Positions 37,055-59,433 of a DNA stretch of 64,000 nucleotides are shown in pieces (position 1 is the stretch's first letter; every line of letters begins with the position of its first letter). The position numbers were made by a program, and so were the translations under genes. The stretch spans positions 8,680,001 to 8,744,000 of the forward strand of contig NC_134428.1 of the NCBI RefSeq assembly GCF_030867145.1, read 5' to 3'. Under the pieces are notes generated by a model that was not told where the DNA came from, ran no database searches, and saw only the letters and a program-made list of their open reading frames with translations. Source of the DNA: Opisthocomus hoazin. Its lineage: Eukaryota; Chordata; Aves; Opisthocomiformes; Opisthocomidae.

Positions 37055-37125
37055 GAGGTTGATGTATTCAAGGACTGTCAAGAAATATTGACAAAACTGG
37101 CACAGAAAATCAGTCAGCAGCTGGG
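37055..37125 (+). pseudogene. TEKT5: TEKT5 exon, EVDVFKDCQEIL segment
   Basis: Acceptor CCACTGTAG, then EVDVFKDCQEILTKLAQKIS and QQLG-part, donor GTAAGA; intact by itself. It matches the tektin segment after the REKRxGIDLVHD region. Confidence 0.85.
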
Positions 37126-38787
37126 GTAAGAATTTCTATTTAACTCCTGTTTGAAAGGTAGGAAAGCCGGATTCAGTTTTGGCTGGTGCCTAACTACAGA
37201 TCGAGGGTAGCGAGGCAAAATCAGAGACTTCGCCTGTCGGCTGCTCACTGCCCGCCACTTCTCCTTCTTACCAACGACAGAATTCGAAAGTTAAACTGGA
37301 GAAGAGTTAGAGTCTTACCTAGAGTCTAGGTAAAACTAGTAAGATAAGTCTTACCACTTAAAGATGACTGTGGCTCAATTTTTAAAGTCTTATTAATCTG
37401 AAATTCTTCATTAAAATTAGGCACAACAAAATTATAGCTTAGTTGTGCCCATGTTGCTATATGGAACATTGGAGTGAAGTTCAAAGCGATTTTTTTTTTT
37501 TTTTAATCACAAAACTGAATTCAAAGGAAAATTATTATTGACATAAGAAACAGGAATCTAAGCACATCATAAGCTACGAGTTATGGAATGGACTTAAGTT
37601 ATTTTAATGTATATTTACATCTGTTTTTGTTATGGGAGGCTTTGGAATTTATTTTCTTTCTTTGAGAGTACACAAATATCCTAGTAAATTCAAATTGTAT
37701 TTAAGTCTTGCCATTTAATTAGGGAAAACTATTCTGAACACAGTCTGCTCTGTTAACTACACAGAACTGACAAGTTTTAAAAGTCATGTTTATACAACAT
37801 GGCATGATTCTCAAAAGAAAAAGTCTAAGTGCTCACACACAAGGAAGATAAAATTGTAGTTCTTGATTATTACATTACAGCAGAAAAAGAGATAAGTAGA
37901 TTTTATAAAAGATTGCTCTCATAAATGGCACTCTGGACTTGTGTGAGTCAGGTTAGATGCATTTGTGCAGTTCGTCCCACTGCTGTGACATAAAAAGCTA
38001 CATTCATACCTGGTGGCATGAGCGTTGCCTAGCTGGCGCTTCTGGTTACCTGGGAGTCAGTTCTGCCACCACATCAGGCAGACCGATGGTAATGCCGGTT
38101 GGCACCAGTAATGCTTGTAAAACTGTCAGGATGTCTGCTGTCTTCCTGACGCGCTGGAAAGCGAGGCTTTGATTCTTTCTTCATGTGTGTTACTCCCGTT
38201 CTAGCCCAAGGTCTGCCAGGCCTTCCCCCCTTTTGGAAGGGCCAAAGGAGATTAAATTACTCCAAAAAAAAAAAATCCTTGTGGGTAAGAAAGCAGAGAT
38301 GGAGCAACGTGTTTCCCTCCTTGTGATCAAGATGAGCAGAAACATTTCAACAGATTTTCCAGTGACGTGCAATTTGAATTACGTTATGTGAATTTGTTCC
38401 CCAAATCGGGCGAGATGGGAAGCCACAACTCCGGTCTGCCCTTCTCTTTCTCATTTACAGCTTTGCTGGCATGAAGGTCTCCCTTTTGCTCGGAGGCTTT
38501 CCTTCACGCTACGCGACAGCCACTTTTTCACCCCTGTGGTTGTCTGTCACTGAAATGAGAAACGTTATTACGTCCAGTGAGCTAAATGCAAGGCTTTGGG
38601 GAATGCTCACTAGAGGCTAGAAGGGACGAGTGGTACAGCAGCTCCCTCTAGCTAAATTACAGCACCAAGCGTTTTCACTTCGCTAAATGCCAACAAACTA
38701 CAAAATGAAGCTAATGAAAGCAATTAGCTATTTAGCACAACTGCATTAAAGGTGCTTCAGATTAAGGTAAGTCTTTCTCCTTCACAG
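37126..38787 (+). other. TEKT5 intron with a hairpin cluster
   Basis: AT-rich intron. Two short inverted repeats sit at 37315-37333 and 37339-37354. A T-run occurs near 37491-37504. No other gene recognised. Confidence 0.5.
37315..37354. repeat. Two adjacent short inverted repeats
   Basis: TTACCTAGAGTCTAGGTAA at 37315-37333 has 9-bp perfect arms around one G. GTAAGATAAGTCTTAC at 37339-37354 has 6-bp arms around four bases. They share AGTCTTACC-like words with the sequence just before them. Confidence 0.6.
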
Positions 38788-38929
38788 CATCAACAGAGAT
38801 GCACATCATGCCCTGGAGCAGGATCTTTCTGACAAAAACTCAGCCCGTTTTATTGATGAGAAGTGCTTTAACCTTAGGAACACCAGACAGCATCAGCTTT
38901 TACTGTGGAGTGGAGAAAGCAGATGGGAC
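38788..38929 (+). pseudogene. TEKT5: TEKT5 exon with a 2-base frameshift
   Basis: Acceptor CTTCACAG and donor GTGAGT. The first part reads [20 protein letters not shown] then [12 protein letters not shown]. After ACC at 38882-38884 the family frame continues two bases short: only one base (38885) stands where the next codon (Ser) is expected. The downstream frame then reads [14 protein letters not shown]. The exon is 142 nt where 144 would keep the phases of both neighbouring introns. Confidence 0.88.
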
Positions 38930-58800: not shown

Positions 58801-59219
58801 CCGTATCTAGACCGTTTAGCACATCCTGCTGCACAAGCTTAAGCTATTCTGACCTACACCACTCTCCAGTAACTTCTATCCCAAACATATTCTGCAGGAC
58901 CCCGTGCAAGTTCTCGATGCAGCCGTGCTAGCCCTAGAGAGGCTACTCATTTGAGAGGCTGCAAGTGAGGAGAGAGCAGTTAGAAAGACATACCAGAGTG
59001 GCTTACTCTGTTGATTGTGCTGAAGGCCAACACAAGCAAGAAATCCTCACTTCTTACAGGTGCTATGCAAGCTAGTTTGGCAAATAGGTTTCATATTGAT
59101 TCACTCCAAGACAGCTGTTCAAATCCTACCTGAAAGCGAGACCTGTCTGCTGTCAGAAGAGGAACGTATTGAGGGACTGATACAGTTATTGAGCAACCTG
59201 TCCCCTTCTCTCTTTGCAG
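55873..59219 (+). other. Last TEKT5 intron, with an antisense exon-like segment
   Basis: AT-rich intron ending CTCTCTTTGCAG. It contains the candidate minus-strand exon 57436-57642 and a cysteine-rich minus-strand frame around 58.64-58.79 kb without good splice sites. Confidence 0.5.
57436..57642 (-). other. Candidate antisense coding exon, unknown gene
   Basis: On the minus strand an acceptor (AAACTTTCTTAG) precedes 57642 and a good donor (CTCA|GTGAGT) follows 57436. Between them 207 nt are open as exactly 69 codons, phase 0 at both ends. The product starts TGPFGTSAPSLAIVGRRDNV, continues TPCCFDPKSNKSYALDRCNP and ADWTDASHNAADIFVEEIFR, and ends EEVEKEQDS. It has three cysteines, a Cys pair plus one, and an acidic tail. 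I do not recognise the family. It lies inside the last TEKT5 intron on the opposite strand. It could be one exon of a nested gene, a relic, or chance. Confidence 0.3.
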
Positions 59220-59433
59220 GCTGGTTACTGAAGTTTACACTATAGATGACACCATACAGACCTTAAAGCGATGTCTGCAAGAAGCCCGTGATACTCAGCA
59301 GATGCTGCTCCACAACAAGTCAAAGCTGGAACGTGACATTTCTGTGAAGGCAAACTCCTTCTTTATTGACAAGAAGTGTATGGACATGCGCAAAGTCTTC
59401 CCCAGCAACCCACGGCTCATTGGCTACACCTGA
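59220..59433 (+). pseudogene. TEKT5: TEKT5 last exon and stop
   Basis: Starts with the last base of a codon, then [60 protein letters not shown] and [10 protein letters not shown], then TGA (59431-59433). It is intact and strongly tektin-like, which argues that the upstream breaks are recent. Confidence 0.88.

Follow-up and report, generated by a model that had tools for sequence, protein, structure and literature searches.

Introduction

The filament bundle in the doublet lumen includes TEKT3 in both respiratory cilia and sperm, and TEKT5 is sperm-specific in mammals, according to the excerpts of PMC10917850 and PMC13066092 used here (all papers below are likewise cited from excerpts). The lumen protein TEKTIP1 binds to TEKT3 but does not bind TEKT1, TEKT2 or TEKT4 (PMC10917850). 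In sea-urchin sperm, the doublets have filaments of TEKT1, TEKT2 and TEKT4 (PMC13066092), and sea urchin has one tektin-3/5 gene (PMC6357514).

The distribution of these genes among vertebrates was surveyed by Bastin and Schneider in 2019. In the excerpted text of that survey, TEKT3 is present in all vertebrates covered and TEKT5 is absent from 7 of 8 teleosts and from two amphibians; the remaining vertebrates, which by the figure legends include two avians, keep both genes (PMC6357514). The same authors proposed that TEKT3 and TEKT5 are redundant, such that fertility might suffer only once both have been lost (PMC6357514). For chicken, Tektin-5 is listed in a protein table of PMC6767445 and Tektin-3 in one of PMC8063615, two entries that rule out a bird-wide loss; chicken TEKT5 transcripts are mentioned in the excerpts of PMC11802539 and PMC7915382. 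No published loss of TEKT3 or TEKT5 in a bird was found in the open-licence literature and, as far as could be found, loss of both genes together is unreported in vertebrates.

Mouse mutants inform on the loss of either gene alone. Mice null for Tekt5 are fertile and show mild defects (excerpts of PMC13066092 and PMC10842264). As for the position that TEKT5 normally takes, PMC10842264, a paper whose subject includes a mouse pseudogene, suggests that another tektin fills one TEKT5 site in the null animals, and PMC13066092 states that density at that site is barely detected. Tekt3-null mice are also fertile, with reduced motility (PMC10917850). Evidence against an easy dispensability of the two proteins comes from the TEKT3 mutations reported in infertile men (PMC10917850), and from the Tekt5 knockdown and the TEKT5 variants reported in PMC13066092.

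Here, we describe a bird genome in which TEKT5 and its sister TEKT3 are both broken. The lineage has very probably lost the vertebrate tektin-3/5 class, with TEKT5 and TEKT3 left as unitary pseudogenes, and keeps the older tektins TEKT1, TEKT2 and TEKT4.

The TEKT5 locus

The window is the whole stretch of DNA that was analysed, 64,000 nucleotides corresponding to C15:8680001-8744000 of an assembly of 1.48 Gb in 415 contigs. It contains five exons of a TEKT5 remnant, all on the plus strand, for which breaks and per-exon identities were called by frameshift-aware alignment to cow TEKT5. Exon a (37055..37125, 71 nt, beginning EVDVFKDCQ and flanked by AG and GT) is open, with 13/23 residues identical to cow TEKT5; by itself it is a weak match, with E 0.04 against the cow protein and 0.26 against that of mouse. 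Exon b (38788..38929, 142 nt, again between AG and GT) has 37/46 identical residues and a 2-nt deletion at about 38885 that breaks the frame. When left uncorrected, the frame leading out of exon b runs into an early stop in exon c (42813..43035, 223 nt), which is itself open, is identical at 42/75 positions and is covered by a Pfam Tektin match at 42751-43035 (65.1 bits). Exon d (55718..55872, 155 nt, 39/54 identical) has two in-frame stops, TAG at 55736 and TGA at 55832, bringing the coding breaks of the remnant to three. The last exon (59220..59433, 214 nt including its TGA stop, 39/65 identical) is open and carries a Pfam Tektin match of 65.7 bits at 59221-59430. The splice sites are complete, with AG at 5/5 acceptors and GT at 4/4 donors, and the exon phases fit one another everywhere but at the breaks. 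These are the features that the initial annotation had claimed, namely five exons with all GT-AG sites and mutually fitting phases, three separate frame breaks and an intact last exon, and each of them is confirmed.

The exon matches are better than chance, because four of the five have E values of 1e-9 to 2e-22 against cow or mouse TEKT5, and they lie in order on a single strand. Among the five tektins the remnant is closest to TEKT5: it is identical to cow TEKT5 at 169/260 positions vs 151/263 for cow TEKT3, and it groups with mammal TEKT5 with a bootstrap of 99 when the C-terminal columns are used and 100 when all columns are used. The kept introns and splice sites rule out a retrocopy. On its 5' side lie the exons of NUBP1 (29135..33447, minus strand), the syntenic neighbour of TEKT5, which also served as a quality control and has no frame break in 293 aligned codons (counted against a human NUBP1 reference). 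EMP2, which we take to be the far-side neighbour of TEKT5, was not met within the next 30 kb beyond it.

The N-terminal exons, expected to encode approximately residues 1-217 and to lie between NUBP1 and exon a (33448..37054), were detected by none of the searches. Residues 1-217 of mouse or cow TEKT5 gave nothing better than E 1.0 in the 64,000-nt window, and genome-wide they matched only at the other tektin loci. A profile of the TEKT3/5 N-terminus reached at most 8.5 bits across 94 kb around the remnant. The same profile picks up the N-terminal exons of TEKT4 (87.7 bits), TEKT1 (47.5) and TEKT2 (31.9); its match to TEKT3 is by construction, the profile having been built with that TEKT3 sequence among others. 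The window is free of N, the missing interval included. Hidden N-terminal exons were therefore rejected on the combined result of tblastn with mammal and bird queries, the 94-kb profile and the genome search, in keeping with the earlier remark that these exons are not visible. The further claim that the gene is dead is supported by its syntenic place, the kept introns, the three coding breaks, the missing N-terminal part and the finding of no second copy. As read from sequence, TEKT5 here is a unitary pseudogene, unprocessed and in place, that adjoins NUBP1.

The TEKT3 locus and the other tektins

A search of the genome with the Pfam tektin family gave at least 26 matches, with 107 of 166 candidates scored, and all of these fall in five loci. 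The same five contain the 20 matches to mouse TEKT5 and the 26 matches to cow TEKT3 (26/26 candidates scored in each search), and within this coverage no further copy of TEKT3 or TEKT5 was seen. Named by trees and by their best match among solved mammalian tektins, the loci are TEKT5 (the window, C15), TEKT4 (C15 at 24.07 Mb), TEKT1 (C20), TEKT2 (C17) and TEKT3 (C21). The locus at 24.07 Mb of C15 was also considered as TEKT3, and this was rejected in favour of TEKT4.

TEKT3 has seven coding exons, from C21:11287081 to about 11295580. In exon 1, a 1-nt insertion at about 11287198 is followed by a 1-nt deletion at about 11287457, and the starting frame has stops between the two. Exon 3 ends at 11291508 with AT in place of the expected GT donor, exon 4 has an in-frame TGA at 11291865 and exon 5 has a 1-nt deletion at about 11293246. 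This makes four coding breaks (three 1-nt indels and one TGA) plus the loss of the exon 3 donor, which is the only AG or GT site not kept. The last exon reads beyond the expected stop position and was left out of the lesion count. The remnant is identical to cow TEKT3 at 348/485 positions and is joined to it with bootstraps of 98 and 99 in two trees. As exons of PMP22 follow downstream (no break in 140 aligned codons, the first coding part not being seen), the remnant is at its ancestral place, and by its sequence the C21 locus is a unitary pseudogene of TEKT3 next to PMP22.

The other three tektins are free of such damage. In TEKT1 (7 exon alignments), TEKT2 (9) and TEKT4 (5), there are no stops or frame changes in any of the 21 alignments; one short exon of TEKT4 was skipped by the aligner, and was located by pattern and read by eye. 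Taken together, TEKT3 and TEKT5 have 7 coding breaks (3 stops and 4 indels) in 757 codons vs none in the 1,272 codons of TEKT1, TEKT2 and TEKT4 (Fisher p 0.001).

The search was extended to small proteins of the lumen. For TEKTIP1, the best match to the bovine protein had E 2.6 and was judged to be chance. The TEKTIP1 Pfam family had no match in the genome and none in the control genomes either, so this search lacked a positive control. The non-detection would fit a co-loss of TEKTIP1 with TEKT3 as one module; alternatively, the gene may be absent from birds as a whole or from this assembly. A family search did detect SPACA9, a second small protein of the lumen; one of the SPACA9 matches crosses a TAG, which was taken to lie beyond the end of the exon.

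Age of the lesions and rival explanations

The initial annotation had called the TEKT5 loss recent. At the columns invariant in the mammal TEKT1, 3, 4 and 5 that were used, differences number 5/87 in TEKT3 and 3/58 in TEKT5, vs 6/86 in TEKT1 and 9/87 in TEKT4, and at looser columns they are 32/222, 20/138, 21/159 and 27/160, respectively. The dead genes thus have no excess of change at conserved residues over the intact tektins, which is expected of a young loss and equally of intact genes with sequence errors, so this measure neither supports nor excludes decay. Changes near RPNVELCRD, which we take to be the tektin motif, were dropped as a mark of decay, since the same region also varies in the genome's TEKT1, TEKT2 and TEKT4. 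Lesion counts were also compared with assumed rates of 1.5-3e-9 substitutions per site per year, indels being 10%. On these rates the point values are 9-19 My for both genes; the Poisson ranges run from about 3 to 41 My for TEKT3 and from about 2 to 54 My for TEKT5, and one common age is possible. A recent loss of TEKT5 is plausible and loosely bounded: the lack of excess erosion at conserved residues is consistent with it, and a range that wide does not prove it. Both losses would then be no more than some tens of millions of years old. The upper ends of the two ranges leave some room for an old loss common to a large bird clade, a different timing that is compatible with the loss of both genes. 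Four of the five TEKT5 exons and the exons of TEKT3 still align easily, and their conserved residues are no more eroded than those of the intact tektins, and we regard an old loss as rather unlikely.

The lesions could also be errors of assembly or base calling, with TEKT3, TEKT5 or both intact in the animal. Small indels make up four of the seven coding breaks, and the unremarkable conserved residues would agree with such errors; yet the control exons of TEKT1, TEKT2, TEKT4, NUBP1 and PMP22 have no breaks, three of the breaks are stops and one further lesion is a donor change, all of them substitutions. Homopolymers touching the breaks have at most 4 bases (the TEKT3 insertion being placed only to about 12 bases for this check), GC within 100 bases is 0.46-0.64, and the missing N-terminus of TEKT5, in a stretch with no N, is not a base error. 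Sequence error is accordingly improbable. Germline-restricted chromosomes of songbirds carry testis genes, and an intact TEKT3 or TEKT5 might similarly lie outside the assembly, on such a chromosome or in an unassembled stretch of a genome still in 415 contigs. Against this, both old loci decayed in place, and the Pfam family (107 of 166 candidates scored), mouse TEKT5 and cow TEKT3 searches saw no further copy, which makes a copy elsewhere very hard to credit. The least probable alternative is that splicing skips the broken exons and still yields a useful tektin. The complete splice sites of the TEKT5 remnant would permit it, but in TEKT5 the first 217 codons are missing and two exons are damaged, and in TEKT3 exons 1, 4 and 5 are damaged, the exon 3 donor is lost and the start codon falls in the broken exon 1.

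Predicted consequences of a probable paired loss

With both genes lost in the lineage, no working TEKT3 or TEKT5 protein would be made, and the doublet-lumen bundle would consist of TEKT1, TEKT2 and TEKT4 only. Most likely, the layer of TEKT3 and TEKT5 is a reinforcement of the filament bundle and is not essential. Selection on these filaments may then have lapsed in this lineage, and both genes would have been free to decay, because single loss leaves male mice fertile. Their decay in place would have proceeded by ordinary mutation, that is, by stops, small indels, a splice-donor change and loss of the TEKT5 N-terminal exons, and the predicted outcome is a bundle of TEKT1, TEKT2 and TEKT4 in sperm and airway cilia alike. 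On balance, we lean towards the view that the whole tektin-3/5 class has been dispensed with, and that sperm and airway axonemes run on such a bundle, as in sea-urchin sperm.

The described systems resemble this genome in part. TEKT5 was lost independently in teleosts and in amphibians of the survey, as happened here, whereas all vertebrates in the excerpted survey keep TEKT3, which is also broken in this genome (PMC6357514). In the Tekt5 and Tekt3 knockout mice, one member of the class is gone and males are fertile with milder motility or flagellar defects (excerpts of PMC13066092, PMC10842264 and PMC10917850); those losses are engineered and single, in contrast to the loss of both members in a natural lineage. 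The filament set of sea-urchin sperm doublets is the one predicted here (PMC13066092), although the urchin retains its tektin-3/5 gene (PMC6357514, in excerpt) and the bundle of the bird is predicted from genes alone.

Gene loss is an ordinary event, and it is the combination of TEKT3 with TEKT5 that speaks to an unsettled question. With a living species that has neither gene, the generality of the survey, in which TEKT3 occurs in every vertebrate, would no longer hold. Such a species would also make the redundancy idea testable, by offering a natural experiment on sperm and cilia that have to do without the pair. If the proposed reading is true, filaments of TEKT3 and TEKT5 serve other vertebrates as a reinforcement and not as a requirement.

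Other features of the sequence

A reverse-transcriptase fragment (Pfam RVT_1), presumably of a CR1 element, lies on the minus strand at 12529-13621 of the window. At 4028-4474, also on the minus strand, is an open frame for a helical-looking peptide, the examined part of which had no Pfam match at 0.001; we assume that its position would suit a CIITA-like gene. A COX1 search of the genome gave seven matches, which are spread over C41, C4 and C15 and contain reading breaks. The fragments, at C15:6486038-6486635, C15:6588652-6589249, C41:82283039-82284384 and C4:37934566-37935027, are probably copies of mitochondrial DNA in the nuclear genome. Both C15 fragments score the same and they lie on opposite strands, as an inverted duplication would give.
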